From positions 248,001 to 312,000 of the forward strand of contig NZ_AUGR01000002.1 in the NCBI RefSeq assembly GCF_000422765.1: 64,000 bases of DNA, in the 5' to 3' direction. Below are positions 35,257 to 62,888 of the stretch, piece by piece. Each line of letters opens with the position of its first letter. The stretch's first letter is position 1. Both the position numbers and the translations under genes were made by a program. Below the pieces are notes generated by a model. That model saw nothing but the letters and a program-made list of their open reading frames with translations. It was not told where the DNA came from and ran no database searches. This stretch comes from Neptunomonas japonica DSM 18939 (GTDB lineage Bacteria > Pseudomonadota > Gammaproteobacteria > Pseudomonadales > Balneatricaceae).

Positions 35257-35285
35257 ATTGACACCCTCTTATTGCAAAAAATAAC

Positions 35286-38525: not shown

Positions 38526-38740
38526 TTCTTACTCCTGCTTTATCTCTACTCATGCTTATGTTTGGCCCCGGATGTGCCCCAGAAGCAACGCTATATCTAG
38601 AGTATGCCAAAAAGTACCAAGCTGTACAGAAAACAGCATTGGTCAGTTGTTGTTGAGAAATCCTATGATAAATCACCGTTCAATAGCGTCACTTGAACAA
38701 AGCCTATGAGCTGCACAAGTATAATAACAGGAGCATTACG

Positions 38741-43877: not shown

Positions 43878-43969
43878 GAGTTTGGGTCAAAAGCATCATA
43901 GTTTGAGTCAATTATATCAATTTGCTAATTGTTATCATTGGTTTAAGACTAACAATAAGAGATTCCCTC

Positions 43970-44923
43970 ATGCAACTTAACGCAACTCAAATTCAAAATG
44001 CACTTCCCTGGGATGCACTAATCATCGCGTTGAATGATATTTTCGTTCGCGAAGTTTGCTCGCCGGTTCGTCATCATCATACGATCAATGTACCTCAGGA
44101 GCCGGATGCAACTTTACTGCTGATGCCTGCATGGCTAGAAGGGGAATTTCTAGGCGTTAAGCAGGTTAATGTGTTCCCTGGCAATAATGCTCGCAATATC
44201 CCAGGTCTTAGTAGTCATTATATGCTGAGTTGCGGAAAAACTGGACAGCCTTTGGCACAGTTGGATGGCAATGAGCTGACTGCACGTAGAACGGCCGCCG
44301 CTTCAGCATTGGCTTCGAAACTTCTCTCACGTGAAGATGCGAGTGAGATGCTGATGGTTGGAAGTGGCCGAATGAGCCGCCGATTGATTCCAGCGCATAT
44401 GAGTGTTCGCCCAATTAAAACCGTTCGGGTGTGGGATCGCAATCAGGATGCAGCGCAAGCGCTGGTTACAGAGCTGCAGGCGGAAGATATCAATGCCGAA
44501 GTCTGTGCTAAAGACCAGCTAGAAGAGGCGGTTAGAAAATCTGACATTATTAGTTGCGCCACGATGGCAACTACGCCTTTGATTTTGGGGGACTGGTTAA
44601 AGCCGGGAGCGCATCTTGATCTGGTGGGAAGCTTCACACCCACAATGCGAGAAACTGATAATACTGCGATGCAGCGTAGTGCGGTATTTGTGGATACCCG
44701 AGCCGGCGCGTTAAGTGAAACCGGCGATCTAATTATCCCTATCCAGGAAGGCGCAATTACTGAAAATAACGTTATTGCTGAGTTTTCAGAACTATGCAGC
44801 GGCCAGCATCTTGGTAGACCAGGCTTAGACGATGCTAACAACGCTGTGACGATTTTTAAATCTGTGGGTGATTCAAGGGAAGATCTTGCAGCAGCCATTC
44901 TTGCTTACCAGCGACTAGTTTAG
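43970..44923 (+). CDS. ornithine cyclodeaminase/mu-crystallin family reductase
   Basis: 317 aa, OCD/mu-crystallin Rossmann protein with LMVGSGRMSRRLIPAHM as nucleotide motif. Members are ornithine or lysine cyclodeaminases, or reductases of cyclic imines such as pyrroline-2-carboxylate. The next gene is a DadA-like FAD amine oxidase, so a role in D-amino acid, lysine or proline-derivative catabolism is favoured. The ATG at 43970 begins the conserved part. Confidence 0.85.
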   Translation: MQLNATQIQNALPWDALIIALNDIFVREVCSPVRHHHTINVPQEPDATLLLMPAWLEGEFLGVKQVNVFPGNNARNIPGLSSHYMLSCGKTGQPLAQLDGNELTARRTAAASALASKLLSREDASEMLMVGSGRMSRRLIPAHMSVRPIKTVRVWDRNQDAAQALVTELQAEDINAEVCAKDQLEEAVRKSDIISCATMATTPLILGDWLKPGAHLDLVGSFTPTMRETDNTAMQRSAVFVDTRAGALSETGDLIIPIQEGAITENNVIAEFSELCSGQHLGRPGLDDANNAVTIFKSVGDSREDLAAAILAYQRLV

Positions 44924-44945
44924 GTTTCTCGTGACCTAACTTTGG

Positions 44946-44972
44946 GCCTTACTTTCGGTAAGGCTCCTTTTT
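44946..44972 (+). terminator. terminator after OCD-family gene
   Basis: A perfect 7-bp stem (44946-44952 with 44958-44964), 5-base loop, then TCCTTTTTA. It lies 22 bases after the stop. Confidence 0.75.
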
Positions 44973-45021
44973 ACTCTTTATAATAAAATAATAGAGGCGC
45001 ATGACGTCTTATGGAGTTTTT

Positions 45022-46299
45022 ATGCAACAAAGTGGTTTTAGCACTGCAACAGATTATTCATCTAAAACTGTCGTGGTTGTTGGAGCCGGAGTTGTTGGTC
45101 TGTGTACTGCGCTTGAGGCGCAGCGAAAAGGCTACCAAGTAACACTTATTGATAGAGATGAAGCAGGGATGGGGGCTTCGTTTGGTAATGCCGGATATTT
45201 GGCTACTGAGTTGATTGACCCTTTGTCTACACCAAAAACACTCCTTTCTAGTTTCGCTATGTGGCTTAATTCTCACGGGCCTTTGTCTTTACCGCTAGGT
45301 TATTTGCACCGCATCCTGCCTTGGCTAGTGCGTTTTATTTGCGCCGCCGCTCCCAAGACTACTAAAAAAAGTCGTTTAGCACTTGAGCAGTTAAACCGGG
45401 CTTCGGTGCCGGCTTGGCGGCGCTGCTTGGAAGATATCGGCGCACAAGAACAGTTGGTTCAATCAGGTTATCTGTTGGTTTGGGAGTCAGCAGATAAGCT
45501 GGAAGATGCCAAGCAACATGCCGCCTATATGCAAGAGAACGGCATTAAAACGGAGTTAGTGCAGGGAGAGCGCCTCGCGCAACTGGAGCCTGAATTGGCT
45601 GAGAACCTTAGCCATGCACTGTTTTTTCCTGAAGCCTGTCGTGTTAAAGAGCCTTACGAGCTCTGTAAAATTCTTTTATCTGCTTTTTTAGCGCGTAAAG
45701 GGGCATTTTTACAGCAAGGTGTTACTTTCTTACAGCCTGAAGACAAAGGCGTATTGGTGCAAACTGAGGCGAGCTCATTGAAGTTCGATCACGCTATTAT
45801 TTGCGCAGGAGCTTGGAGTAAACAGCTGTTGAAGAGTGTTGGTCTAGACGTGCCGCTGGAAGCAGAGAGGGGATACCATCTATCCATTGATGCGGAGCAT
45901 ATTAAGCTTAATCATCCAATAGGGTCTGCAGAACGTCGTTTTGTTATGAGCCCGCTGGATTCAGGCTTACGCGTGGTGGGCATAACCGAGTTAGGTGGCC
46001 TGAAGTTAACGCCTTTTAAGCAGCGCTTTGATTCGCTCCAACATCATAGTGGTAAGTTATTACCGCGACTGAATAATTCAACATTAGAGGTCAGTAAGTG
46101 GATGGGGCATCGTCCCACATTGCCTGATTCGCTTCCCGTGATTGATAGGCACCCCGAGCACTCTCAGTTACTATTTGCCTTTGGAAATCAACATTTGGGG
46201 CTGACACAAGCGGCAATCAGTGCCGAGCTGGTAGTCGGGTTAATGACGGGGGATTTGCCTACCATTAACTATGAGCCATTTCGCGTGGATAGATTCTAG
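45022..46299 (+). CDS. DadA-like FAD-dependent amine/D-amino acid dehydrogenase
   Basis: 425 aa from the ATG at 45022, which follows GGAG by five bases; an ATG at 45001 would add seven residues. The Rossmann FAD motif is VVVVGAGVVGLCTA, then a DAO domain up to the C-terminal substrate/FAD region (FGNQHLGLTQAA). Oxidises a D-amino acid or a cyclic imino acid at the membrane. A terminator separates it from the OCD-family gene, but direction and context suggest one pathway. The substrate is not known. Confidence 0.86.
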   Translation: MQQSGFSTATDYSSKTVVVVGAGVVGLCTALEAQRKGYQVTLIDRDEAGMGASFGNAGYLATELIDPLSTPKTLLSSFAMWLNSHGPLSLPLGYLHRILPWLVRFICAAAPKTTKKSRLALEQLNRASVPAWRRCLEDIGAQEQLVQSGYLLVWESADKLEDAKQHAAYMQENGIKTELVQGERLAQLEPELAENLSHALFFPEACRVKEPYELCKILLSAFLARKGAFLQQGVTFLQPEDKGVLVQTEASSLKFDHAIICAGAWSKQLLKSVGLDVPLEAERGYHLSIDAEHIKLNHPIGSAERRFVMSPLDSGLRVVGITELGGLKLTPFKQRFDSLQHHSGKLLPRLNNSTLEVSKWMGHRPTLPDSLPVIDRHPEHSQLLFAFGNQHLGLTQAAISAELVVGLMTGDLPTINYEPFRVDRF

Positions 46300-46536: not shown

Positions 46537-46661
46537 AGGGCTCTTTGCTCAGTTTGTTAGTACGTTCAATCACGCGTGGGTATCTTTAGCGGTCATGATG
46601 AGAAGTACTCAACCTGATATCTAGATATACCTGTTGTTAATAATCGACATCTAATTGAAAA

Positions 46662-46675
46662 TGTAAGCGCTTGCA
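46662..46675. promoter_or_regulatory. LacI-type operator upstream of FMN dehydrogenase
   Basis: TGTAAGCGCTTGCA, a 14-bp palindrome with one mismatch, is the LacI/GalR consensus type. It lies 113 bases before the FMN dehydrogenase start and matches the perfect site at 49060-49079. Confidence 0.6.
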
Positions 46676-46787
46676 AGAAAGTGTTAACTTATGTTCTCCT
46701 GTTTGTTATGGGCTGAGTGTTGTGTTCGATTCTTGAACAAAATAACGGTTCTGCAAACAGTCAAACTACACTCTTAGGGAGCATAAG

Positions 46788-47933
46788 ATGCCAGAATCCT
46801 TGTTACACCGGGCGGCCTGTATTGAAGACATGAAAACCTTGACGCGTAGGCGCATTCCCCGGTTTGCTTTTGAGTATCTGGCAGGGGGCTGTAATGCAGA
46901 AAATACGCTGAGGCAAAACCGTCAGGCTTTGGATCAGGTGTATCTACAACCCAGTTACTTATCAACATCTGCAGGGGCTGATCTGAGTACAGAGGTTTTT
47001 GGTCAGCAGTACGCTGCGCCTTTTGGCGTGGCGCCTCTGGGTTTGAGTGGGCTGATTTGGCCGAAGGCATCGGAGTTCCAAGCGTGCGCCGCGCGTGAGG
47101 CAAATATTCCTTATATCCTCAGCACTCTGGCGAGTACTTCGATAGAGCGAGCTGCTGAGTGTTCGGGAGATAATTTTTGGTTTCAGCTTTATCCACCTTC
47201 AGACTTAGGAATTCGGTCTGACCTTATGCGTCGTGCTGAAGCCGCTGGGTGTCGTCATCTGGTGGTGACTATCGATGTGCCGGCAGCAGGAAGGCGCCCA
47301 CGTGATATTCGTAATGGTCTTGCTGTGCCGCCTAAAATTAGTGTGGACAGTATTACCCAGACAATGCTGCGCCCTTCTTGGGCGATGGCAACGGCCTTAC
47401 AGGGAATGCCGCAATTCGCATCGATGATGCCTTATATGAAAAACATGTCAAACCTGCGTGATATCGCCAATTATATCCGTACAACCCTGAAGGATGTTGT
47501 GGATTTTCCGATGTTGCAGCAGATCCGCCATGCTTGGGCGGGAAAGTTGATTGTTAAAGGAGTCTTGAGTGTTGCTGATGCTGAGCTAGCACTGGCAGCA
47601 GGTGCTGATGGCCTCATTGTATCTAATCATGGTGGCAGACAACTTGATGCCGCGTACCCTTCTGTTTCAGCGCTGAAAGAAATTGTTGCTGCGGTTGGTG
47701 ACCGTACGGTGGTGATGGTTGATAGCGGAGTAGAGTCCGGCCCTGATATTGCGCGCTTTTTGGCTCAAGGGGCGCAGATGGTGTTTGCCGGTCGGGCCTT
47801 TATGTATGGCGTGGGTGCTTTTGGTGAGCTAGGGGCTGCGCATACTATTGATTTGTTGCGTAATGAGCTGCTCCAGGTAATGGAGCAGCTACGATGTCCG
47901 ACACCACATCAGTTGCCTCAGTATCTGCTCTGA
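46788..47933 (+). CDS. FMN-dependent 2-hydroxyacid dehydrogenase, likely sulfolactate dehydrogenase (SlcD-like)
   Basis: 381 aa, lactate/glycolate oxidase family. Active-site residues fit K257 (LIVKGV), H281 and R284 (SNHGGRQLDAAY); the N-terminal RRIPRFAFEYLAGG is typical. It oxidises an L-2-hydroxyacid and passes electrons to the membrane or to oxygen. It adjoins DHPS-type genes through a shared LacI operator, so 3-sulfolactate to sulfopyruvate is the favoured reaction (inference). Plain L-lactate dehydrogenase is the alternative. Confidence 0.82.
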   Translation: MPESLLHRAACIEDMKTLTRRRIPRFAFEYLAGGCNAENTLRQNRQALDQVYLQPSYLSTSAGADLSTEVFGQQYAAPFGVAPLGLSGLIWPKASEFQACAAREANIPYILSTLASTSIERAAECSGDNFWFQLYPPSDLGIRSDLMRRAEAAGCRHLVVTIDVPAAGRRPRDIRNGLAVPPKISVDSITQTMLRPSWAMATALQGMPQFASMMPYMKNMSNLRDIANYIRTTLKDVVDFPMLQQIRHAWAGKLIVKGVLSVADAELALAAGADGLIVSNHGGRQLDAAYPSVSALKEIVAAVGDRTVVMVDSGVESGPDIARFLAQGAQMVFAGRAFMYGVGAFGELGAAHTIDLLRNELLQVMEQLRCPTPHQLPQYLL

Positions 47934-47939
47934 CTTTTG

Positions 47940-48962
47940 CTACATAGAGTGGGTCATGTCGGTGGTTTCTCGCACTTTCAAGTCTGCCGGTAATTGAACC
48001 CGGGTAATGTCACGGTTGCCGGTTTGGATGCAGTTTAATAAGTAGGTTGCGGCAAGTGTGCCCATACGACGCGCCGGTACATCGATGGTCGTCAGGCTAG
48101 GGGATAATGCGGCGGTTATCTCAAGGTTATCAAAACCTGTGACAGCAAGTGTTTTAGGCACTGGAATATCCAGTTGTCGCAAAGCAGATAGTGCGCCCAA
48201 TGCGAGTATATCGTTACCGCAGATTACCGCGCTGAAAGGGTGGCCGGCGACGATGAGCTCTGTGAGTGCAAGGCTGGACTGCTCCGCACTATAGCGGCAT
48301 TCGCGAACTAGTTCAGGTTTAAGTTCTAGGCCTTTTTCTTGGAGGTATTGCCTAACACCTTCGATGCGCTCTCTGGCTCGATCATTGTCGATCTGGATAC
48401 CAGATATGACGGCAATATCTTTGTGCCCCATATTAACAAGGTGCTCAGCAATCTTGCGCCCAGCGGCGGCATTATCAAAGCCGATACAACTATGTATGGA
48501 CTGGCTGTTGTAGGTCCACAGGTTGACCACAGGAACTTGGTGGCGATCGAGCATTTCGTATACTTCGGGATGGTGTTCTTCACCAATCAGTACCATGCCG
48601 TCAATACCCCGGGTGATAAGGCTTCGCACCTCTCGGAGTTCTTCATCAAGGGAGTAATTGCTGCTAGCTAAAAGTAACGTAAAGTTAGCTTCTGATAAGC
48701 CCCGTTGCAGGTAGTGTATACCGTTAGCAAAGATGCCATTGTCGATGGTAGGTATGACTGCGCCTATCGTGTGAGAGCGGCGCGAGGCGAGTGCTCGTGC
48801 TGCACCATGGGGTGCATATCCGAGGCGGTTTATAACCTCATTGACCTTATCACGTAATTTTTCTTTTACTTGCGCGGGTTGGTTTATACAGCGAGAAACC
48901 GTTGCCGTTGAAACCCCGGCAGCCGTTGCAACGTCTTGTAATGTTGGTTTTGAATTACGCAT
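47940..48962 (-). CDS. LacI-family transcriptional regulator
   Basis: 340 aa. The N-terminal LacI helix-turn-helix (TLQDVATAAGVSTATVSRCI, about 6-25) has the hinge helix at about 50-60 (PHGAARALASRR), followed by a periplasmic-binding-like sensor domain. It is divergent from the TRAP system 2 operon, and the perfect palindrome at 49060-49079 lies in the shared spacer, so it should repress the DHPS-type genes and perhaps itself. The inducer may be a C3 sulfonate or a derivative. Confidence 0.9.
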   Translation of the reverse strand: MRNSKPTLQDVATAAGVSTATVSRCINQPAQVKEKLRDKVNEVINRLGYAPHGAARALASRRSHTIGAVIPTIDNGIFANGIHYLQRGLSEANFTLLLASSNYSLDEELREVRSLITRGIDGMVLIGEEHHPEVYEMLDRHQVPVVNLWTYNSQSIHSCIGFDNAAAGRKIAEHLVNMGHKDIAVISGIQIDNDRARERIEGVRQYLQEKGLELKPELVRECRYSAEQSSLALTELIVAGHPFSAVICGNDILALGALSALRQLDIPVPKTLAVTGFDNLEITAALSPSLTTIDVPARRMGTLAATYLLNCIQTGNRDITRVQLPADLKVRETTDMTHSM

Positions 48963-49033
48963 ATATCTCCCTTTTCACAGTCTGCATGATAACAACAATT
49001 CATACAAACCCAGATAGTTATTTGCAATCAGGG

Positions 49034-49061
49034 TTGACAGTGCAATCATTTAAAGTTTAAT
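49034..49061 (+). promoter_or_regulatory. promoter of TRAP system 2 operon
   Basis: A perfect TTGACA (49034-49039), 16-base spacer and TTTAAT (49056-49061). The LacI operator overlaps the -10 end and the expected start, so repression by blockage is expected. Confidence 0.65.
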
Positions 49062-49079
49062 TTGTAAGCGCTTACAAAT
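49060..49079. promoter_or_regulatory. 20-bp perfect LacI-type operator
   Basis: ATTTGTAAGCGCTTACAAAT is fully palindromic and carries the GTAAGCGCTTAC core of LacI/GalR sites. It sits between the divergent LacI gene and the TRAP operon, at the promoter. Confidence 0.8.
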
Positions 49080-49099
49080 ATTGTCTTCGGAGTATTCCA

Positions 49100-49318
49100 A
49101 TGTTTACAGAAAGACTAATAAAACATGCTTATCGAATTGCCATTGTGTTGTTTTTGGTTTTTTTCACCAACGTGCTGGTGGGGAAAATATCAATGTGGTT
49201 GTTCGGTCTTCAGCTGCCTCTGGGGTTCAGTGGAGTGGTTGAATTCTTGGTTCTGTGTGTTGCATGTATCTTTTTTGTGATCGGAATACTTCGAAGTGAA
49301 AGCCTGAACCAAAAATAA
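49100..49318 (+). CDS. small membrane protein, unknown
   Basis: 72 aa with two hydrophobic segments (about 12-32 and 44-64). GGAG lies seven bases before the ATG, and the TRAP binding-protein gene follows after 22 bases, so it is first in the operon. I do not recognise the family. It might be a small accessory subunit of the transporter. Confidence 0.65.
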   Translation: MFTERLIKHAYRIAIVLFLVFFTNVLVGKISMWLFGLQLPLGFSGVVEFLVLCVACIFFVIGILRSESLNQK

Positions 49319-49340
49319 TTAGATCAATCAGGAGCAACCC

Positions 49341-50486
49341 ATGAGCAAAGCAAATCAACCTGTCTGCCCGGAACGTCGTCGCTTTATGGCGCTGACCAGT
49401 AAATTTGGTTTTACCGCAGTGACTCTGGCTGCCGCATCAGGGCTTATGATGTCAGACCAGGCCGTTGCAGCGATATCCAAAGAGGAAAAAGAACGCGAGG
49501 CGAAAGCAAAATATAAGATGGTGATTGCCACCGCTTATGTTTTGGGCTCATCGCGTAGCTATCCGATTATGCAGCTGGATTTTAAAGAAAATATCCAGAA
49601 TCTAACGAACCGCGAGGTTTATGTGAAACTCGCACCGGGTGGCCAATTAGGTGCAGGTGGTGCACTGGCTCAAAAAGTACAGCAGGGTACTATTCAGGCA
49701 GCTCAGCATTCTCTTTCAAATTTTGCAGCATTTGCTCCGGTGGTTGATTTGATCAACATTCCTTATTGGTGTGGTGAAAACCAAAAATTCACCAACCTTG
49801 TGAGTTCTGATGCTTGGCATCGTGAGGTAAACCCGAAAGTAGAAGAGAGAGGTTTCTTGCCGTTATGGTATGTCAACATTGATCCTCGTGTTGTGGCTGT
49901 ACGACATGGTATTGATGGGCCTATTAAGACACCTGATCAAATGTCCGGTATTAAGTTTCGGGTACCAGGCTCGAAGATCTTGCAGCAGTTCTATCGCTTA
50001 TTAGGTGCTAACCCAACACCGGTGGCTTGGGGTGAAACGCCTTCTGCCATTAAGCAAGGTGTTGCCGATGCACTCGACCCTTCTGTTGAAGCGCTGAATG
50101 TCTTTGGTTTTCGTGATGTTATTTCGCATGTTTCCTTTATTCGTTCGGTTCCTGATGCCCAAGTATATTCCTGCAACCTAGCTTGGTTTAAATCGTTACC
50201 TGCCAAAATTCAAGACGGCATTATGTTCGCCGCTGAAGTCACGGCGCAGCAAAACTTGGCGAAAGTGCCTGCCGCACGAGGGTTTGCAATGGCTGAATTA
50301 GCAACTGCCGGAGTTAAGTTCTACTCACCAACAACGGGTGAATTGCAACAATGGAAAGATGCGGCTGGACACCAGTTACCTGTGTGGGATGACACTAAAA
50401 TTGAACTGGCTGGGTCTCTGGATATCTTTGACAGCTTGCATGATGCGGCCAATACCCAAGGGCGTCATTTCGTACACGATATTTAA
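49341..50486 (+). CDS. TRAP transporter binding protein DctP (system 2)
   Basis: 381 aa, DctP family. The N-terminus has a Tat-like region (ERRRFMALTSKFG) before the hydrophobic stretch and a cleavage site near AVAA (about residue 45), so export by Tat is possible. GGAG precedes the ATG. It binds the ligand for the adjacent DctQ/DctM pair. Position before HpsN/O/P genes matches the HpsKLM DHPS uptake system of Cupriavidus and roseobacters. Confidence 0.88.
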   Translation: MSKANQPVCPERRRFMALTSKFGFTAVTLAAASGLMMSDQAVAAISKEEKEREAKAKYKMVIATAYVLGSSRSYPIMQLDFKENIQNLTNREVYVKLAPGGQLGAGGALAQKVQQGTIQAAQHSLSNFAAFAPVVDLINIPYWCGENQKFTNLVSSDAWHREVNPKVEERGFLPLWYVNIDPRVVAVRHGIDGPIKTPDQMSGIKFRVPGSKILQQFYRLLGANPTPVAWGETPSAIKQGVADALDPSVEALNVFGFRDVISHVSFIRSVPDAQVYSCNLAWFKSLPAKIQDGIMFAAEVTAQQNLAKVPAARGFAMAELATAGVKFYSPTTGELQQWKDAAGHQLPVWDDTKIELAGSLDIFDSLHDAANTQGRHFVHDI

Positions 50487-50582
50487 GTTGATCTGCTAGA
50501 GCGATGGCACTGAGCATCCATGCCCTGTGCCTAGTTTTCTGTAGCTGTAGTAACGCTACTGTTCAATTTAGAGGTGTATGTT

Positions 50583-51110
50583 TTGAATACAGACAAGATA
50601 ACAATTTGGCAAAAGCTGGATGAAAATGCTGAACGGTGGCTGTTGTTAGTTTTTTACGTCGTGATTGTTCTAACCGTCGGTGTGGAAGTGATACGCCGCT
50701 TTACACTCTCTTATTCGTCAATCTGGGGGGAAGAGGTCGCTCGTTACGCCTTTATTTATCTCGCTTGGATTGGTGCCGCATCGGCTGTTAAAGATCGTGC
50801 TCATATTCGGATTGATGTGATCCTGAATTTCCTGCCTCGCAACGGCAAGTTACTCGTTTATATCTTAGGTGATGTGGTGATGATCGGCGTTTCGGGACTC
50901 GCTTTTTCATATTCGGTGGAAACGCTTCTGGTCTCAATTAAGTTTGGCTCGGTCACTCATGGTTTAGGCATTAGCCAGGCTTGGTTTATCGCCGCAGTTC
51001 CATTGGGCTTCTCCTTGATGCTTTTTCGCCTGTGGCAATCCTTGAGTCGTGACATTCGCGCACTTAGAAATGATTCGCCGATCTACACCGGAAAACGGTT
51101 GTTCGATTAG
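50583..51110 (+). CDS. TRAP transporter small permease DctQ (system 2)
   Basis: 175 aa, four membrane segments, DctQ family (VEVIRRFTLSYSSIWGEEVA). A TTG at 50583 six bases after GAGGTG is the best start; a GTG at 50574 lies inside that ribosome site. Followed by the large permease 15 bases later. Confidence 0.85.
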   Translation: MNTDKITIWQKLDENAERWLLLVFYVVIVLTVGVEVIRRFTLSYSSIWGEEVARYAFIYLAWIGAASAVKDRAHIRIDVILNFLPRNGKLLVYILGDVVMIGVSGLAFSYSVETLLVSIKFGSVTHGLGISQAWFIAAVPLGFSLMLFRLWQSLSRDIRALRNDSPIYTGKRLFD

Positions 51111-51125
51111 ACAGGAAACCTTCCT

Positions 51126-52448
51126 ATGTATAACTATTTGAATCCTGAAGTCACCCTAGATTGGGGGTGGGAGTTAGGTGGGCCATTATTGATTGGCGTG
51201 ATTATGTTCGCATTAGGTGTGCCGGTTTGGGCAGTATTGGGCGTTATCTCTGTACTGATTCTAGAACTTAGCGGAGCCTTGCCACTGTCGTTACTGGGTG
51301 AAGCATTGTTTGATGGCATTGATGCTTTTGCTTTGATTGCCATACCTTTATTTATTCTCACCGGCGATGTGTTGGTGCGTACCGGACTGTCGCGTAAGTT
51401 GCTGGATATAGCCGAAGCGCTGACGGGCGGTGCCAAATCAGGCTTTGGTACTGCAACGGTACTGGTTTGTGGTTTCTTTGCCTGTATCTCCGGTTCAGAT
51501 GCTGCCGGTGCTGCTGGGGTTGGTCGTATGACCATTGATCGCCTGGTAGAACAGGGTTACCCCAGACCATACGCTTGTGCCTTGGTTGCCGCTGGAGCTT
51601 GTACCGGTATCCTGATCCCACCGTCTATCGCCTACATTATCATCGGGTTGGTGTTGGGCATCTCCGCATCGACGTTGTTCTTGGCGGCCTTGGTGCCGGG
51701 TCTTTTGGTGATGGGCTGCATTATGGTGTGCAACATCATTCTTAATCTGACTCATGGTTTTGAGAACGCAGGAGGTGGTTTCTCTTTACGCCGCATTATT
51801 ACTGCGATCTATGTGGGTCGATACGCGCTGATTGTACCGGTCATTATTTTAGGAGGTATCTACAGCGGTGTATTTACCCCAACAGAAGCGGCAGCCATCG
51901 CGGTAATCACAACGATCATTATTGGATTGTGGCAAAAAACTATTAGCCTGAGTGAGTTTCCGGCCATGCTGGCCAGCTCCGCTAAAGTCAACGGAGTGAT
52001 CCTACCTATTATTGCGTTCTCTTTACCGTTAGCTCAAGCGTTGGCTGCACTCGAGGTTCCGCAAGGGTTTGTATATATGGTGACGGATATCACTGATGAT
52101 CCGACCATGATCATTTTACTGATGATCAGCATTCTTATCTTGGCGGGCTGTGTGATGGAAACTACACCCAATATCGTCATCCTTGCGCCTATTATGCTGC
52201 CCTTAGCACAAGAGATCGGTATGGCCGATATTCAGTTTTGCATCATGATGATCACCGCTCTTGGGGTTGGTTTTATTACCCCACCGTTGGGGCTCAATCT
52301 CTTTGTTGTTTCAGGTCTGACTGGTACCCCCATTCTGGGTATTGCACGCAATGCTGTGCCCTTCGTGCTGGCAATGCTCAGTGTTGTACTGCTACTGGGA
52401 TTTGTGCCTGAACTCTCTTTGTGGGCTCTGCCTAGTTACAGCTACTGA
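51126..52448 (+). CDS. TRAP transporter large permease DctM (system 2)
   Basis: 440 aa with about 12 membrane segments, DctM family (ISGSDAAGAAGVGRMTIDRL, LVAAGACTGILIPPSIAYII, FITPPLGLNLFVVSGL). Followed by the HpsN-like gene. Probable sodium-coupled uptake of DHPS or a related sulfonate; the substrate is inferred from context only. Confidence 0.92.
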   Translation: MYNYLNPEVTLDWGWELGGPLLIGVIMFALGVPVWAVLGVISVLILELSGALPLSLLGEALFDGIDAFALIAIPLFILTGDVLVRTGLSRKLLDIAEALTGGAKSGFGTATVLVCGFFACISGSDAAGAAGVGRMTIDRLVEQGYPRPYACALVAAGACTGILIPPSIAYIIIGLVLGISASTLFLAALVPGLLVMGCIMVCNIILNLTHGFENAGGGFSLRRIITAIYVGRYALIVPVIILGGIYSGVFTPTEAAAIAVITTIIIGLWQKTISLSEFPAMLASSAKVNGVILPIIAFSLPLAQALAALEVPQGFVYMVTDITDDPTMIILLMISILILAGCVMETTPNIVILAPIMLPLAQEIGMADIQFCIMMITALGVGFITPPLGLNLFVVSGLTGTPILGIARNAVPFVLAMLSVVLLLGFVPELSLWALPSYSY

Positions 52449-52452
52449 TTAG

Positions 52453-54548
<2,096 letters not shown>

Positions 54549-54556
54549 GGTGCCAA

Positions 54557-55576
54557 ATGAGCAGTAAAACAATGAATGCACTGGTCTATACCGACAGGCA
54601 GGAGATTACCTATCGCCGAGAGCCGCTGCCACAGCCACGCGAAGGTGATGTACGGGTAGACATTACAGCAACGGCGATATGTGGATCCGACATGCATGCT
54701 TACCATGGAAAGGATGCGCGTAGAGTGCCGCCGTTGATTCTGGGGCATGAGGTGAGCGGTATTGTGTTAGATGGTCGTTATGCGGGGCAACGCATGGTCA
54801 TTAATCCGCTGATGACCTGTGGAGAGTGTGAAGACTGTGTTGGTGGGCGTAGTAACCTGTGCCGCCACCGCGAACTCATTGGTATGTATCTGCCCGGTGC
54901 TTTTGCTGAACAGGTAGCTATTGCAGAGCGAAATTTATTACCCATTCCTGCTGATATGAACCCTATACATGCAGCCCTGACCGAACCCACCGCGACAGGG
55001 TTGCATGCGGTGGCACTGGTGGAGAGAGTTTTACCACGGCCACTATCAGAAGCACGTTGTTTGGTTATCGGCGGCGGTGCTATCGGGTTGCTCACGGCGC
55101 TCATCTTAAAAGCTAAAGGCTGTATTTCGGTTGATCTGGCAGAAACTAACGCGTTACGACGAAGCAGTATTGAGCAACAGGATTGTGCTAATTGCTTTAA
55201 CCCGCTAAAGGAGGCGCTACCGTACCCTAATGGTTATGAGGTGGTGTTTGATTGTGTGGGTTGCGGAGCTACAAGGCGAAGGGCCAGTGAAGCGGTGCGC
55301 CCAGGAGGGATTATTTCCCACGTAGGTCTACAGGATGATGGAGAGGGGCTGGATACACGTAAGCTAACTCTACAGGAGGTTATTCTACTGGGTAACTACT
55401 GCTATACACGTGCTGATATGCAGGCATCGATCGATATGCTCTATCGCGGTCAGTTGGGAAACTTGTCTTGGATTGATGTTCGGCCTTTATCGACAGGCGC
55501 TCAGGCCTTTACAGATTTGCATAACGGTAAGGTAGCTGCCGCAAAAATAGTGCTACAACCGGACACCCTGCTGTGA
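54557..55576 (+). CDS. hpsP: zinc alcohol dehydrogenase (HpsP-like)
   Basis: 339 aa MDR enzyme. Catalytic zinc region AICGSDMHAYHG and ILGHEV; structural zinc cysteines in CGECEDCVGGRSNLC; Rossmann motif CLVIGGGAIGLLTA. The ATG at 54557 follows GAGGTG, eight bases after the hpsO stop; the frame runs back inside hpsO but without conservation. Third gene of the hpsNOP-type set. Confidence 0.78.
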   Translation: MSSKTMNALVYTDRQEITYRREPLPQPREGDVRVDITATAICGSDMHAYHGKDARRVPPLILGHEVSGIVLDGRYAGQRMVINPLMTCGECEDCVGGRSNLCRHRELIGMYLPGAFAEQVAIAERNLLPIPADMNPIHAALTEPTATGLHAVALVERVLPRPLSEARCLVIGGGAIGLLTALILKAKGCISVDLAETNALRRSSIEQQDCANCFNPLKEALPYPNGYEVVFDCVGCGATRRRASEAVRPGGIISHVGLQDDGEGLDTRKLTLQEVILLGNYCYTRADMQASIDMLYRGQLGNLSWIDVRPLSTGAQAFTDLHNGKVAAAKIVLQPDTLL

Positions 55577-55655
55577 TCGGTTAGTCTTTCAAAAACCACT
55601 ATAGGTACTTTTCTATGTTTGTCGCCAAGGGCGGCTGAGCAGGGTGAACTGCTGT

Positions 55656-55677
55656 CTTAAGTAAGCGCCTGTAAGTA
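55656..55677. promoter_or_regulatory. degenerate LacI-type half-site
   Basis: GTAAGCGCCTGTAA at 55661-55674 keeps GTAAGCGC of the operator at 49060-49079 but loses the other half. It lies about 45 bases before the comDE-like gene. Weak. Confidence 0.3.
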
Positions 55678-55709
55678 TATAAATATAATAATCAGAGGAT
55701 TGTAAAACC

Positions 55710-56828
55710 ATGAATAATAGCGAAATGATCTGGCATGCGTTGTCACAAAATCAGGTAGATAAAATTGCCTTTAATCCCTGTAATAAGCTCAATCTGGTGA
55801 TGAAGTACGTGCCAAAAGAGATGGAAGTATGGGATATCACCAAGGAGTCTGCTGGCTTGGCACTGTGCTTTGGGCGCAGCTTGGGAGGCAAGCGTTCGGC
55901 GATGTTTATTCAAAATACCGGTATAGGTAACTTGATTACCGAGCTATACACGATGCAAAAGCTATATCAGGAAGGCTTACCGATTTTTGCTTCCTTTCGA
56001 GGTTACTTCCAAGAACCGATCGAAGCCCAGATTATTTATGGCAGCAATATGGAGACCCTTCTAACAGCGATAGATGTTGAGTATCGAATACTAGAAAAAG
56101 CTGAAGACCTAGTTGATCTTGCAGCAGATGTAGCTAACTGCTTTGCTGAGAAAAAGGTCAAGGTGTACCTGTTATCTCCTGAGCTGTGGGAAGAGAAAGT
56201 CGATGACTATCACGTGTTTGGTCAGCCTCATTTCACTCCTGTCAGTGTTAGTACCGGAGCGTATGAAGGTAACCCTAGCCAGACTCGTGCTGAAGCTATT
56301 AAGGTGATTATGGATAACGTGAGTGCTGAGGATTTGGTCATGTCACAAATTGGCTTCCCTTCCAAAGAGGTATACAACGCGAACGATCGTGCTGAAAACT
56401 TTTACATGTTAGGGGCGCTGGGTTCTGCTACCGAAGTCGGCATTGGTCTGGCAGATACCATTCAGGGGCGTCATGTATACATCGTAGATGGTGATGGTTC
56501 ATTTTTCTTTAACCCTAACCAGCTGGTCGACCTAGCGGCCTTAAAGCCGAAGAACTTAACTGTAATTTGCCTTGATAATGGCAGTTACGGCTCGACAGGT
56601 AACCAGCCAACGCTTAGCTCTAGCGGTATGAATCTGAGTTCTTGGGTGCAGACTATGGGCGTTGAGAGTTCAGCTATTACCGATCAGCCCGATACTTTTT
56701 CTGAACTTATTAAAGAGAAGCCAACGTTTATTCACTACCTTATCAAAGCCGGCAATGAAAAGTCGGGCGAAGAAATACCTCTCAAAGCGGTGCAAATAAA
56801 ACAACGCTTTATGAGCGCTATCATTTGA
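55710..56828 (+). CDS. comDE: fused sulfopyruvate decarboxylase (ComDE-like)
   Basis: 372 aa thiamine-diphosphate enzyme with the two halves in one chain. The N-terminal Pyr domain has E47 (WDITKESAGLALCFGRSLGG), the C-terminal PP domain has the ThDP/Mg motif GDGSFFFNPNQ (261-271) to DNGSYGSTGNQ (289-299). It decarboxylates 3-sulfopyruvate to sulfoacetaldehyde. Phosphonopyruvate decarboxylase is the nearest alternative, but no phosphonate genes are present and hps-type genes are. It lies 133 bases after hpsP, next to a weak operator half-site. Confidence 0.8.
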   Translation: MNNSEMIWHALSQNQVDKIAFNPCNKLNLVMKYVPKEMEVWDITKESAGLALCFGRSLGGKRSAMFIQNTGIGNLITELYTMQKLYQEGLPIFASFRGYFQEPIEAQIIYGSNMETLLTAIDVEYRILEKAEDLVDLAADVANCFAEKKVKVYLLSPELWEEKVDDYHVFGQPHFTPVSVSTGAYEGNPSQTRAEAIKVIMDNVSAEDLVMSQIGFPSKEVYNANDRAENFYMLGALGSATEVGIGLADTIQGRHVYIVDGDGSFFFNPNQLVDLAALKPKNLTVICLDNGSYGSTGNQPTLSSSGMNLSSWVQTMGVESSAITDQPDTFSELIKEKPTFIHYLIKAGNEKSGEEIPLKAVQIKQRFMSAII

Positions 56829-58724: not shown

Positions 58725-58728
58725 CTAT
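58710..58728 (-). terminator. hairpin overlapping repressor stop
   Basis: A perfect 7-bp stem (58710-58716 with 58722-58728) and 5-base loop; on the minus strand TTTTC follows. It includes the last codon region of the repressor. Confidence 0.55.
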
Positions 58729-59444
58729 GCATCCTTTCCTATCCACACGACGCGGCCAATTACTTCCAGGTCGTCGGCTTCGTTTGGTTCTACCAGCTGC
58801 TCTTTGTACTCTTTGTTGTCGCTGAGTAGCAGTATGCCTTTATTCCAGAGCTTTTGGATGCGTTTAACAATCAGGTGGCCGTCTGTTCTGATAACGTAGA
58901 TCTGACCGTCATTAAGTTCGCGCTGAGTGGTGTCGATCATCAGCGTATTGTTGGTGCTGATTGTCGGCTCCATGCTATCGCCTCGGGCGAAGACCAGTAC
59001 CAGGTTGTCTGGCGATAGGCCGCGATAACGTAACCATCTGTGACGAAACGCCAGCTTACGCGTGGGTTTTTCTTCTATAGGGAATGCGCCTATACCTGCC
59101 GCCACTTCTACATTGTAGCCAGGTATCAAGGCGAACTCATCAGTCATATCTTCAGCAGAAGTGCTTGTGCTGACTGGCGTAGCTGGGCCTTTGCCAGTTA
59201 ACAGCCAGATTGCAGAAACGCCTGATGCTTCAATAATAGCAGCTAGCCTCAGGGCTTTAGGCTCTGACTTTCCAGCCAAATATGTTTCTAGTGTCCTGCG
59301 TGGTATTCCCGCTTTTCTTGCTAGGTCATCCCCGCTACCTACTATTTCTGCGCACTTTCTTATTCTATCCGACAAGGTTTTTAACGTTTCGGAGTTGTTT
59401 TCGTTAACTCCGAAATCCATTTCGGACTTATTTTTATTGTTCAT
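58725..59444 (-). CDS. phage repressor, S24/LexA-type
   Basis: 239 aa. The N-terminal helix-turn-helix (about 38-70, DDLARKAGIPRRTLETYLAG) is joined to a C-terminal S24 peptidase domain with the Ser nucleophile in ARGDSMEPTI and the Lys near GHLIVKRI. Such repressors keep the lytic genes off and may self-cleave on RecA activation. Divergent from the early lytic operon. The ATG lacks a strong ribosome site; codons 5-20 carry operator-like repeats, so a later start (M9 at 59420) is possible. Confidence 0.9.
   Translation of the reverse strand: MNNKNKSEMDFGVNENNSETLKTLSDRIRKCAEIVGSGDDLARKAGIPRRTLETYLAGKSEPKALRLAAIIEASGVSAIWLLTGKGPATPVSTSTSAEDMTDEFALIPGYNVEVAAGIGAFPIEEKPTRKLAFRHRWLRYRGLSPDNLVLVFARGDSMEPTISTNNTLMIDTTQRELNDGQIYVIRTDGHLIVKRIQKLWNKGILLLSDNKEYKEQLVEPNEADDLEVIGRVVWIGKDA
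59387..59429. promoter_or_regulatory. operator-like inverted repeats in repressor 5' end
   Basis: TTTCGGAGTT (59387-59396) and AACTCCGAAA (59406-59415) are a perfect inverted pair; TTTCGGACTT (59420-59429) is a third near-copy. A fourth, AACTCCGAAA, is at 59510-59519 in the divergent spacer. Confidence 0.6.
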
Positions 59445-59509
59445 ATGAAAATAATACCATTTAAAAACAATATGTTACGCCCTTATTGCTATGCCGAAGG
59501 CAGAAAGCT

Positions 59510-59519
59510 AACTCCGAAA
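59510..59519. promoter_or_regulatory. operator-like half-site upstream of ner
   Basis: AACTCCGAAA is identical to the copy at 59406-59415. It lies just before a possible early promoter, so it could be the repressor site that blocks lytic transcription. Confidence 0.5.
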
Positions 59520-59532
59520 TCGCAGATGCTGC

Positions 59533-59561
59533 TTGATTAGTTGGCAGTATGTTACTAGTAT
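59533..59561 (+). promoter_or_regulatory. possible early lytic promoter
   Basis: TTGATT (59533-59538), 17-base spacer and TAGTAT (59556-59561); each hexamer matches consensus at four of six. It lies 58 bases before the ner-like start. AGTTG/CAACT at about 59570-59585 is a short inverted repeat that could be a Ner site. Confidence 0.4.
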
Positions 59562-59619
59562 GTATCACAAGTTGGTCGCACAACTAAGTATTAAAAGTAA
59601 TACATATAAGGGCAAAAAA

Positions 59620-59910
59620 ATGAGCAAATCGGCGATTCACTCAGCATCTAAAGACTGGTCTCAAAACGAGGTGCTTTTCGCGGTTAGAAACCGTGGTAAC
59701 AACCTTGCTCAACTGGCCGCAGAAAATGGGTATAAGCATAACCTGCGTGCTTTGTATGTGGTGTTCTATCGCAAGAACGCACCCACAGCGCAAAAAATCA
59801 TTGCTGACTTTTTGGGCTTACCACCTGAAGAGATTTGGCCGTCTCGTTATCAGTCTTCAATTCCTAAGTGTACCTCACCTGCTGAGCGTCCGCATGTTCG
59901 GCTTGCTTAA
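59620..59910 (+). CDS. Ner-like phage DNA-binding protein
   Basis: 96 aa. SfsB/Nlp/Ner-type helix-turn-helix (LAQLAAENGYKHNLRALYVV, about 29-48) followed by the family end LGLPPEEIWPSRYQ. Ner is the Mu early regulator that shuts off repressor and early transcription. The ATG at 59620 is the first with family similarity; GGGC lies weakly upstream. First gene of the early operon. Confidence 0.85.
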   Translation: MSKSAIHSASKDWSQNEVLFAVRNRGNNLAQLAAENGYKHNLRALYVVFYRKNAPTAQKIIADFLGLPPEEIWPSRYQSSIPKCTSPAERPHVRLA

Positions 59911-60026
59911 AGTCATGAGTTTTCCTCTTGTTGATATGTGTATTCAGGCTAGATCTGAAAAACACCAAAGCATAGAGGCAGCACAAGAATCTTTTTGTAA
60001 CCACTTTGTTTAGAAGGCATGCAGTG

Positions 60027-60512
60027 ATGAAAGGTATTTGGAAGCACAAGCGGGGTAACAGTGTTAGTGACTCAATGCATTTGTGTGCTCGCTATGCTGA
60101 AAAGAACCACAACTTGTCAGTACCGCGCATTGCGGAACTGATGGGCATGGATAGTTACAACACGCTTTATAAGTGGATGGGTAGCGGCAACATGCCAGCC
60201 AGTAAAATCCGCTCATTTGAGAATGCGTGTCAGTGCAGCTATGTGACCCGCTATATAGCGCAGAGCGCCAACCTGTTAGTGCTAGATATGCCGACTGGGC
60301 GCAAGCCTTCCCACCGAGAACTTAACGAACTGAGCGTTCATGCCCTTTCAGTGATTGGACACCTGATCAGCTTTTTTAATGAGTCCGAATCAAGCGAAGA
60401 CGAAAACGAGCTGATCCAGTCAATCACCACCTTGATTGAAGACCTGGCGCATCAGCGTGGAAATGTCGAAAAACATCAGCAGCCGGAATTGCTGCTAGGA
60501 GACGAATCATGA
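60027..60512 (+). CDS. phage early protein, unknown
   Basis: 161 aa. The N-terminal half looks like a helix-turn-helix (PRIAELMGMDSYNTLYKWMG), so DNA binding is likely; the C-terminal part is acidic and helical. Mu-like phages carry such genes between ner and the transposase. AAGG lies before the ATG. It overlaps the next gene by four bases (ATGA). Confidence 0.75.
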   Translation: MKGIWKHKRGNSVSDSMHLCARYAEKNHNLSVPRIAELMGMDSYNTLYKWMGSGNMPASKIRSFENACQCSYVTRYIAQSANLLVLDMPTGRKPSHRELNELSVHALSVIGHLISFFNESESSEDENELIQSITTLIEDLAHQRGNVEKHQQPELLLGDES

Positions 60513-60763
60513 GCACAGTTAATGAGTACTCAATGACAGAACAGGAAGTTGTAGCCCGCCTTGCTAAATGGTGTGGCACCTCAAAAATGCCAGATAACCG
60601 CAGCCGCATGATAAAGCTGTTACATACCAACAAACCTGCGCCAGAAGTCTTTGCTGAGTTTTGCCAGTTATCGGGTATGACCCGAGGTGAAAGCGAATTA
60701 GTGCTAACAGCCCTTGCTGACAACTTAAGTGCCCTGCGCCGTAAAAAAGTAGTAGGTAGCTAA
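60509..60763 (+). CDS. phage early protein, unknown
   Basis: 84 aa, helical, coupled to the previous gene through an ATGA overlap and directly before the transposase gene (one base gap). Not recognised beyond its position in a Mu-like early operon. Confidence 0.7.
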   Translation: MSTVNEYSMTEQEVVARLAKWCGTSKMPDNRSRMIKLLHTNKPAPEVFAEFCQLSGMTRGESELVLTALADNLSALRRKKVVGS

Positions 60764-60764
60764 G

Positions 60765-62834
60765 ATGAAACAGTGGCTAACCGCTAAAGAAATTGCTGAA
60801 GCAAGATTGTCGAAAATGCCTAGTACTGAACGTGCTATTCAGATTCGTGCAAAGCGAGAACACTGGGAATGCCAACAGCGATTGGGTCAAGGTGGCGGCT
60901 ATGAATACCACATTAGCAACCTGCCCGCTGACGCTCGCAAAGCCCTAGAAGTACAGGCCATCACCGAATTACTACCAAGTGTTGCCTCAAGTACAGAGGT
61001 GGTTGCCAGCACAGACGCTCTTCTGACTCAGCGCCAGCGCGAAGCCTCCGATGCCCGCACAACCATTGTTCGCACCATCGAAAGCATGAACAAAAAAGGT
61101 ATTTCTAAAGAAGCGGCAATGACAACTTTATTGTCACAAGCCGCCCTAGGGGCGTTAGAAGAGAGTAACCCCGTGTTAGATAAAGCGCTACGCATGGCGA
61201 AAGACTCTCGGGGAAGAGGTGACACCTCCTACCCTAGCGTGCGCACTTTAAAACGTTGGTTATCACCTAACACCAAAAGCCTCGCCCCAAAAGGCAAGCG
61301 AGAGCTGGCGATACCCGTTTGGGCAAAGGCTTTTTTAAACTGTTATCAGCGCCCGCAAAAACCCTCTGTAGCCCAGGCATATGAGGATTTTTTGGAAATA
61401 TTTGAAGGCGAGCCGGTGCCGTCTATCCATGCCATACGTCGCTTCATGAAAAAAGTCGGCAGCGTTTCTTTACAACATGGGCGCATGGGATCACGTGAGA
61501 TTAAAAATATTAAAGCGTTTAAGCGCCGCTCTGTTGATGACCTGTTCCCTGGTGATGTGTACAGCCCAGACGGTCATACATTCGATGCCGAAGTAGCGCA
61601 TCCATACCACGGACGGCCGTTTAAGCCAGAGATCACATCCTATATAGATATAGCCACCCGTAAATTGGTGGGCTACTCAGTCGACCTTGCAGAAAGCGGC
61701 GTCGCTGTATTGGATGCACTGATTGCTTCATCAGAAGAATGCGTGCCTGCCATTGTCTATTCAGATAACGGCTCGGGTTACTGCAACGCACTGCTTAAAG
61801 ACCAAGGGCTTGGCGTGCTTGCACGGCTAGGGAGCGAAATTACTCACTCATTGCCCTACAACTCACAAGCACGCGGAGCAACTGAGCGTGCCCATAAAAG
61901 CATCTGGATAAAAGCCGCTAAAAAGCTGGATAGTTATTTGGGTGTAGATATGGACCGCCAAGCCGCCCAACTTAACCACAAAATTACCCGTAAAGCCGTA
62001 CGAAAAGGCGGAGCCACGCACATTATTAGCTGGGTTGATTTTCTGAGATTTTGTGAAGAGACAGCCGCACGATACAACAACTCGCCACACTCATTTTTAC
62101 AGAAAATAACCGATGTAGATGGCTACCGTCGCCACATCACACCCAACGAGCGCTGGGCACAATTCCAAAATAATGGATGGAAAGCCGTCACTCTCTCCCG
62201 TGATGAAGCTGCCGACATTTTCCGCCCGCGTGTTAAGCGCAAAGTGGCGCGCTGCGAGATAAAGCTTAACACCAATATCTACTTCAACAACACGCTTGAA
62301 GAGCATCACGGGGACTTTGTTCAGGTCGCATTTGATATGCGTAACCCCGACTTTATCTGGGTATATGAGTTAAAAAGCGGTGCATTGATTTGCAAAGCCG
62401 AGTGGAACGCCAACCAGACTAGCTACTTCCCTAAAAGCTTTGTTCAACAAGGCCGTGAAAAGCGTGCAGATGGCCGCTTAAAACGCCTTGATATCAAGCG
62501 TGACGAAATTGAAGCCGAGCGTGATGGTATCTATGCCATAGACCAAGAGCAAGGCGACACCATTGAGCTGGCCTCTACCTGCAGAATTAAAGAAAAAGTC
62601 GCTAGGCAAATTGAAGATGCTGAGGTTATCGACGTCGAGCCTGTTCCCGTTAATGGCATTAAAAGCCCAGAGCAGATGACGTTTGACGAACGAATGGAGA
62701 CCTTTGAGCAATACCAAAGCGGCGCAAAAGAAATACCCGAAGCTCATAAGTTTTGGGTGAAGACCTTCCCGCGCACCAAGGCTTATAAAGCCGCCGTAGC
62801 ACGACGAGAAGATATAGCAGAAAACTGGAATTAA
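60765..62834 (+). CDS. Mu-type transposase A
   Basis: 689 aa. The N-terminal Mu-type DNA-binding domain (about 1-65) is followed by a linker/second DNA-binding region, rve core (about 255-400) with DDE residues D269 (YSPDGHTFD), D334 (VYSDNGSGYC) and E374 (GATERAHKS), then the Mu_transpos_C barrel (about 460-560) and a C-terminal tail that would contact MuB. It cuts and joins phage ends in replicative transposition. Full length (Mu A is 663 aa), with no frameshift. Confidence 0.95.
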   Translation: MKQWLTAKEIAEARLSKMPSTERAIQIRAKREHWECQQRLGQGGGYEYHISNLPADARKALEVQAITELLPSVASSTEVVASTDALLTQRQREASDARTTIVRTIESMNKKGISKEAAMTTLLSQAALGALEESNPVLDKALRMAKDSRGRGDTSYPSVRTLKRWLSPNTKSLAPKGKRELAIPVWAKAFLNCYQRPQKPSVAQAYEDFLEIFEGEPVPSIHAIRRFMKKVGSVSLQHGRMGSREIKNIKAFKRRSVDDLFPGDVYSPDGHTFDAEVAHPYHGRPFKPEITSYIDIATRKLVGYSVDLAESGVAVLDALIASSEECVPAIVYSDNGSGYCNALLKDQGLGVLARLGSEITHSLPYNSQARGATERAHKSIWIKAAKKLDSYLGVDMDRQAAQLNHKITRKAVRKGGATHIISWVDFLRFCEETAARYNNSPHSFLQKITDVDGYRRHITPNERWAQFQNNGWKAVTLSRDEAADIFRPRVKRKVARCEIKLNTNIYFNNTLEEHHGDFVQVAFDMRNPDFIWVYELKSGALICKAEWNANQTSYFPKSFVQQGREKRADGRLKRLDIKRDEIEAERDGIYAIDQEQGDTIELASTCRIKEKVARQIEDAEVIDVEPVPVNGIKSPEQMTFDERMETFEQYQSGAKEIPEAHKFWVKTFPRTKAYKAAVARREDIAENWN

Positions 62835-62888
62835 AAAAGGACTGATGGTTGCCCCCATCAGCCCCTAACACACTATAAGGAGCACAGT

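Follow-up and report, generated by a model that had tools for sequence, protein, structure and literature searches.

The window analysed here, a stretch of 64,000 nucleotides from Neptunomonas japonica DSM 18939 (C2:248001–312000 of a 4.39-Mb genome), carries at 46788–56828 a candidate gene cluster for the degradation of 2,3-dihydroxypropane-1-sulfonate (DHPS). The original prediction, made from the letters alone, had described ten genes there, and an open reading frame (ORF) check found all of them in the same places and on the same strands. Except for one small ORF, Pfam and NCBIfam matched each protein to its family: FMN_dh, LacI, DctP, DctQ, DctM, the histidinol-dehydrogenase fold, short-chain dehydrogenase/reductase (SDR), zinc alcohol dehydrogenase and thiamine diphosphate (ThDP) enzyme.

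The first gene (46788–47933, plus strand) encodes a flavin mononucleotide (FMN)-dependent L-2-hydroxyacid dehydrogenase, the proposed (R)-sulfolactate dehydrogenase in the role of SlcD, as suggested by PF01070, by its place beside comDE in related loci, by a tree and by catalytic residues. A LacI-family regulator, the proposed HpsR, follows on the minus strand (47940–48962); it was assigned by Pfam and NCBIfam and is 42–46% identical to the LacI proteins of the Leisingera and Sulfitobacter hps clusters. The remaining genes are on the plus strand. A small membrane protein of 72 amino acids with two hydrophobic segments (49100–49318) precedes a tripartite ATP-independent periplasmic (TRAP) transporter and is conserved in hps clusters of the TRAP type. 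The transporter consists of the solute-binding protein DctP (HpsK-like, 49341–50486; PF03480, 67% identical to the Leisingera hps DctP), the small permease DctQ (HpsL-like, 50574–51110; PF04290, 59% to Leisingera) and the large permease DctM (HpsM-like, 51126–52448; TIGR00786 above its cut-off, 68% to Leisingera). Then come HpsN, the predicted (R)-DHPS 3-dehydrogenase (52462–53793), the SDR-type DHPS dehydrogenase HpsO (53790–54548; 52% to Cupriavidus HpsO, 56% to Leisingera), the zinc-type DHPS dehydrogenase HpsP (54572–55576; 46–47% to the Cupriavidus and Leisingera proteins) and a predicted single-chain sulfopyruvate decarboxylase, ComDE, of 372 residues (55710–56828). The start of HpsP is likely the ATG at 54572 rather than the GTG at 54467, since its relatives begin there in the alignment.

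Proposed operator palindromes and the small membrane protein

The perfect palindrome TTGTAAGCGCTTACAA, proposed as HpsR operator 2 (49062–49077), occurs exactly once in the genome, 5′ of the small ORF. Directly 5′ of it, on the plus strand, we noticed by eye a promoter-like TTGACA-16-TTTAAT (49034–49061); it is absent from the list of a sigma-70 scan, in which the number of sites found was not above that in shuffled sequences. With up to two mismatches the palindrome is found at six places in the genome, two of them in the cluster. One of the five places with two mismatches is the proposed operator 1, ATGTAAGCGCTTGCAA (46661–46676), which begins 127 bp before the start of the FMN gene. The shared operator that had been predicted to tie in the FMN gene is thus present, as two copies set apart, one for each transcription unit. 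No further site with up to two mismatches lies in the window, and the four others adjoin genes with no evident relation, as judged by eye. When up to three mismatches are allowed, the palindrome has 41 matches in the genome and the reversed control has 13.

The same palindrome accompanies hps genes elsewhere. In the form TGTAAGCGCTTACA, with up to two mismatches, it was found 22 times in the 495 kb of loci L024–L054, compared with once for the reversed pattern and 0–11 times for 20 permuted palindromes. Such sites are present in 10 of 11 gammaproteobacterial loci with hps genes and in 1 of 15 without; the exception among the former, L045, begins inside dctP. It recurs at hps loci of Alphaproteobacteria and, with one or two mismatches, of Betaproteobacteria. 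Two tandem copies stand 5′ of the small ORF in L024, L025, L133, L134 and L135; the sites in L055 and L136 deviate by one or two mismatches, and the short stretch of L132 has none. The conserved operator provides a simple lead to the regulon. In L034, L039 and L053, comDE lies 5′ of hpsN together with a variant operator, TGAAAGCGCTTTCA; the same variant is seen in L042, where there is no hps gene.

Relatives of the small membrane protein, of 61–77 residues, precede the TRAP genes in all nine clusters that are readable at this point (the window, L024, L025, L133, L134, L135, L038, L039 and L053). A tblastn search with the nine proteins (E limit 1e-3) over 37 loci found the gene in those eight loci and in no other. 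The similarity crosses classes, as between the window and L025 at 2e-5. The window protein matched no Pfam family, four of the proteins matched no NCBIfam family (two weak matches for L135 were at chance level), and no description was found in the literature searched. In R. pomeroyi, the locus tags SPO0590 and SPO0591 leave no tag in between for the small ORF. It is our guess that the protein is part of the TRAP complex.

The DHPS dehydrogenases and the single-chain ComDE

Among solved structures, the window HpsN matches Cupriavidus HpsN (PDB 8v35) with 593 bits and an (R)-DHPS dehydrogenase (8wwe) with 544, against 251 for HisD (4g07). The genome's own HisD scores 540 bits and is only 32% identical to HpsN. 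For the Cupriavidus enzyme, the available text of PMC11382572 names His126 and Lys353 as contacts of the sulfonate, Glu318, His319 and Asp352 as active-site residues and His411 as a metal ligand. In the alignment, H135 and K362 of the window protein match His126 and Lys353, and E327, H328, D361 and H420 are kept as well, so that the zinc and catalytic residues are retained as had been predicted; the genome's own HisD has Tyr at both sulfonate-contact positions. A HisD identity was rejected on the scores and on this His/Lys pair, which the genome's own HisD lacks, and the sequence marks the window protein as a true DHPS dehydrogenase by prediction. Gln147 of HpsO and His59 of HpsP are named for the roseobacter enzymes in PMC11131964. 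The window proteins hold Q and H in these columns, by a hand count in an alignment in which Leisingera numbering stood in for that of Ruegeria and Dinoroseobacter.

A third HisD-family protein of this genome (L057:1438-2745; G000:C3:200457-201635) is 55% identical to the window HpsN and has the same His/Lys pair. Its gene adjoins those of a DegT-type aminotransferase and, by eye, a LysR-like protein. It is perhaps a dehydrogenase for another sulfonate.

The fused ComDE reaches 182.9 bits with the ComE model TIGR03846 (cut-off 221.5) and 112.5 with the ComD model TIGR03845 (cut-off 147.95), and 151.8 with the phosphonopyruvate decarboxylase model TIGR03297 (cut-off 312.5). Leisingera ComD and ComE are above their own cut-offs, the fused relatives from Cocleimonas and L047 are also below, and three annotated phosphonopyruvate decarboxylases score 402–446 bits with their own model. 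Because of these scores and controls, we assign the fused protein to a divergent ComDE lineage, as a prediction from profile matches, and an identity as phosphonopyruvate decarboxylase was rejected. The ThDP protein thus does not match that enzyme best, yet it misses the ComDE cut-offs as well. Neither of the two best matches that the original prediction had named as grounds for refutation, HpsN to HisD and the ThDP protein to phosphonopyruvate decarboxylase, is therefore seen. The GDG…N motif and a Glu of the Pyr domain, which we take to be the motifs of ThDP enzymes, are kept in all 18 aligned ComDE proteins, in accord with the intact motifs described originally. The predicted fold is weak (mean pLDDT 65); its best matches are ThDP enzymes, including the phosphonopyruvate decarboxylase RhiEF chain, and they do not decide the substrate.

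The single chain had been called unusual, and it is less so than it appeared. A scan of the genome collection found the whole protein in a single frame at 25 further loci, at 62–67% identity, and a partial match of 46% at one more, which makes 26 loci in all. Their titles name Gammaproteobacteria or subgroups of these, except for three labelled 'Proteobacteria bacterium' and one Osedax symbiont. Because the scan patterns were taken from fused sequences, split comD and comE genes may have escaped it. In whole-genome samples the gene is rare: 1 of 369 genomes of the class, the genome studied here (E limit 1e-30), and 3 of 194 of the order (E limit 1e-20), namely this genome, G495 of the same family and one match at 26%. 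Fused comDE genes with neither hps nor FMN neighbours occur in L029–L031, L033, L036, L040–L043 and L046–L050, the last five of which share a run of neighbours that look like housekeeping genes by eye.

Two lineages of FMN dehydrogenase

The FMN enzyme, at about 392–393 bits to PF01070, is the only strong full-length FMN_dh in the genome; the next match has 52 bits. The catalytic Tyr, Tyr, Asp, Arg, Lys, His and Arg are kept as Y30, Y135, D163, R170, K257, H281 and R284, and we presume that these residues have the roles usual in the family.

The gene context connects this enzyme with sulfopyruvate decarboxylase. In the 26 comDE loci, an FMN gene is present in 8 of the 11 that carry an hps gene and in none of the 15 that do not (Fisher p = 1e-4). 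The three hps-bearing loci without it are L039, which ends inside hpsP, L045, which ends about 650 bp past comDE, and L034. The FMN gene is 3′ of comDE in G495, Cocleimonas and Leucothrix, and likewise 3′ of comD-comE in three plasmid clusters. Outside the class, nine genomes of the phylum encode an FMN protein at least 59% identical to that of Leisingera, a limit chosen after the list had been inspected. Eight of these genes are 3′ of a split comD-comE, and the ninth is at a contig end; a tenth protein, from L107, is 53% identical to the Leisingera one, and its gene lacks a comDE within 1.5 kb. By tblastn (E limit 1e-8), no FMN and no comDE gene was found in L055 and L133–L136, which are five hps clusters of a different type. 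UxaA-type genes stand beside hpsNOP in three of them and farther off in one, and are lacking from the stretch of one. The connection of the FMN enzyme to the cluster, which had also been called unusual, is therefore less so, since hps clusters regularly have such an enzyme next to comDE.

In a tree of 64 FMN_dh proteins, the nine gammaproteobacterial and the twelve roseobacter-type hps proteins form two fully supported clades, with other FMN_dh proteins between them. Thirteen loci that repeat others and matches shorter than 300 residues were left out. Each locus had been assigned to its group before the tree was known, from its gene context or, for L101, from identity. The R. pomeroyi SlcD sequence is outside the tree, its family being taken from its position. 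A joint clade of the 21 proteins is worse by 99.7 log-likelihood units (p = 9.4e-14 in the approximately unbiased, AU, test), a constraint that excludes L107, which is sister to the roseobacter clade. When L107 is counted in, which gives the fairer figure, the difference is 36.6 units and p is 7.1e-4. Because both tests reject the joint clade, orthology with the roseobacter enzyme was rejected, and the gammaproteobacterial FMN enzyme is an analogue of it, not an orthologue, a point that the original prediction had missed. The two FMN lineages thus seem to have been recruited separately. Arg231 is present in all nine gammaproteobacterial and all twelve roseobacter-type enzymes, and also in 5 of the 43 other rows, among them LldD types. 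As a weak lead, it might mark a convergence in sulfonate binding common to the two clades.

The literature searched, which lacks most subscription journals, contained no account of the FMN step having arisen twice. What is new here is the lack of orthology between the gammaproteobacterial and roseobacter FMN enzymes, and the small membrane protein conserved before the TRAP genes. The combined claim goes further: that sulfolactate oxidation in DHPS degradation arose at least twice, with Gammaproteobacteria having their own FMN L-hydroxyacid dehydrogenase in the same operator-controlled set, and that the TRAP importer has an undescribed small fourth membrane subunit. We put this forward tentatively, as possible but rather doubtful when taken as a whole.

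Proposed pathway, alternatives and known systems

Taken together, the sequence comparisons make it highly probable that the window holds the inducible DHPS catabolic cluster of a marine gammaproteobacterium, with import, HpsNOP, an FMN step, ComDE, an unlinked Xsc and control by a LacI protein. We infer all the substrates, the stereochemistry, the electron acceptor, the operon structure, the repression and the inducer. DHPS would be bound by periplasmic DctP and imported through the DctQM permease, possibly with the small membrane protein as a helper. HpsN would convert (R)-DHPS to (R)-sulfolactate, with HpsO and HpsP bringing both enantiomers of DHPS into the path. The FMN enzyme would then oxidize (R)-sulfolactate to sulfopyruvate, the electrons probably passing to the respiratory chain; single-chain ComDE would form sulfoacetaldehyde; and the unlinked Xsc would release sulfite and acetyl phosphate. 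The LacI protein would repress both the TRAP-hps-comDE genes and the FMN gene, through the two TGTAAGCGCTTRCA copies, until DHPS or a product of it is present. By the Cahn–Ingold–Prelog rules, (R)-sulfolactate is the spatial analogue of L-lactate, and for this reason an FMN dehydrogenase for L-2-hydroxyacids fits it with no need of a racemase. In the available parts of the sources, (R)-sulfolactate is the product of HpsN (PMC11382572), and SlcD is named (R)-sulfolactate dehydrogenase (PMC11131964).

The xsc gene is on another contig, at C3:241071–242813, with 999 bits against a cut-off of 676.4, which none of 14 control genomes exceeded. Its neighbours, judged from their sequences, are presumably ald, pta and the genes of a MocR-type regulator and of an aminotransferase of class III, the latter probably a taurine–pyruvate aminotransferase. 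The gene thus sits in a taurine-type locus. Xsc-type genes are on four of the 11 hps-bearing comDE loci (L037, L038, L051 and L054), and the proteins of L038, L051 and L026, the contig of L054, score 895–905 bits. Sequence, residues, synteny and genome content all lend good support to the path originally proposed, from DHPS uptake by way of sulfolactate and sulfopyruvate to sulfoacetaldehyde. The gene set had also been described as complete; all the genes named are present, but Xsc is elsewhere in the genome, as had been missed, so the cluster alone is not complete.

Several observations count against this reading. No FMN gene was found within 19 kb in L034, and both L034 and L053 have hpsN beside comDE without hpsO or hpsP. 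The loci behind the co-occurrence counts are partly related (L032 with L035, L037 with L051) and of unequal lengths. Because the FMN enzyme is not orthologous to that of the roseobacters, its substrate assignment rests on context, and ComDE is below the cut-offs of its models, as described above. The 133-bp gap before comDE leaves room for a separate promoter. The palindrome is close to the general palindrome of the LacI family and so does not prove binding by the regulator of the cluster. Finally, no operator-type site with up to two mismatches was found at xsc (C3:241071), and its co-regulation by the same operator was rejected.

The strongest alternative concerns the outlet for sulfopyruvate. 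A gene for CuyA, D-cysteate sulfo-lyase, which does not appear in the original prediction, is in the same window 7 kb upstream of the cluster (38693–39751, plus strand; NF052482, 562 bits, cut-off 450), and sulfopyruvate could therefore also leave by amination and CuyA cleavage to pyruvate, ammonia and sulfite. In this alternative, either the cysteate route is the main outlet and ComDE with Xsc a minor one, or both are used in a bifurcated path. A second CuyA homologue (G000:C2:44621-45565) has 441 bits, just under the cut-off, and 29 organisms with both pathways are reported in the part of PMC11382572 consulted. Against it, the gene downstream of hpsP on the same strand is comDE and not cuyA, cuyA is flanked by LysR-type and ferrochelatase genes with no other operator site in the window, and the aminotransferase for this route was not identified. 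We regard this alternative as rather unlikely, though it keeps some weight. A TRAP set recognized by Pfam as DctM, DctQ and DctP is also found near cuyA, at 33443–36344. Two other outcomes received no support: the SuyAB route was rejected, as no SuyB-type gene was found in this genome (the model PF04295, GD_AH_second, detected no protein here and a Cupriavidus SuyB-type protein at 114 bits), and no ComC above the cut-off was found in it, a single match covering 129 of 333 positions.

It is very unlikely that the primary substrate of the cluster is another three-carbon sulfonate, for example sulfolactate imported as such, and that DHPS is a side substrate. DHPS is the predicted substrate of the TRAP transporter, and sulfolactate would enter at the FMN step, but hpsNOP follows the TRAP genes and precedes comDE, and in R. 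pomeroyi hpsKLM serves for the import of DHPS (PMC10130141). Still less probable is a reading of the ThDP protein as phosphonopyruvate decarboxylase and of the FMN enzyme as an unrelated dehydrogenase of lactate or mandelate. In favour of it, the annotated phosphonopyruvate decarboxylases used as controls, three in number, are single chains too (366–389 residues), the fused protein does not reach the ComDE cut-offs, and lactate oxidase and mandelate dehydrogenase are by sequence the closest solved relatives of the FMN enzyme. Against it, the fused protein scores 152 bits with the phosphonopyruvate decarboxylase model, with which the controls score 402–446, and 183 and 112.5 bits with the ComDE models, no phosphoenolpyruvate mutase is among the ten neighbouring proteins scanned, and FMN–comDE linkage is found in two separate genome sets.

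The DHPS pathway proposed above has close relatives in known systems. The cluster of Ruegeria pomeroyi is given as hpsR-hpsKLM-hpsNOP-hpsQ-slcD in the part of PMC4334477 consulted, and the available text of PMC10130141 describes an SPO0591 (hpsK) mutant as impaired on DHPS, with lower growth and drawdown. Like the window, this cluster has a LacI regulator, TRAP genes, hpsN, hpsO and hpsP in the same order and a sulfolactate dehydrogenase gene; unlike it, the window has no UspA gene, has the FMN gene on the other side of the regulator and has comDE inside the cluster. The roseobacter clusters of Leisingera caerulea (L024), Sulfitobacter sp. S190 (L025) and Alisedimentitalea (L132) have the gene content of the window, and L024 and L025 share its small ORF and operator palindrome, which the L132 stretch stops short of. 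In roseobacter plasmid clusters the order is LacI, small ORF, TRAP PQM, hpsN, O, P, UspA, comD, comE and FMN enzyme. These clusters thus have separate comD and comE, a UspA gene and the FMN gene last, whereas in the window comDE is fused and there is no UspA gene, and the FMN genes fall into two clades. The hpsRNOUPsuyAB cluster of Cupriavidus pinatubonensis likewise has a LacI regulator, hpsN, hpsO, hpsP and operator-like sites before hpsN, but it has uptake of the major facilitator superfamily type and a SuyAB lyase, and no FMN enzyme, ComDE or small ORF was found in its stretch.

The HpsNOP-SlcD-ComDE-Xsc pathway, whose enzymatic steps are identical to those proposed for the window, is already in print; PMC11382572 states that the Xsc pathway had been found in Alphaproteobacteria only, though it names Granulosicoccus, which belongs to Gammaproteobacteria in the NCBI taxonomy. 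Since the pathway is known, the window cluster represents a gammaproteobacterial form of it, set apart by its fused ComDE, by an FMN enzyme that is not orthologous and by a separate operator copy before the FMN gene. Records of Oceanospirillaceae, Thiotrichaceae and Arenicellales have hps, FMN and comDE genes together, with Xsc alongside in L037, L038, L051 and L054. These results suggest that the Xsc route is also carried by marine Gammaproteobacteria, in which the FMN enzyme is not orthologous to that of the roseobacters and the decarboxylase is fused. DHPS, a sulfonate of diatoms, is an important currency of carbon and sulfur between phytoplankton and bacteria. With the roseobacter FMN enzyme as the query, the gammaproteobacterial one would not stand out from other L-hydroxyacid dehydrogenases. 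As the fused ComDE also falls below the equivalog cut-offs, surveys may count too few of these DHPS degraders.

Downstream of the cluster, at 58725–63623, there are genes for an S24-type repressor, a Mu-type transposase and an AAA protein, which seem to mark the start of a Mu-like prophage. Immediately upstream of the FMN gene, at 43922–46299, are genes of the pyrroline-2-carboxylate reductase type and, with a match below the cut-off, of the D-amino-acid dehydrogenase type.

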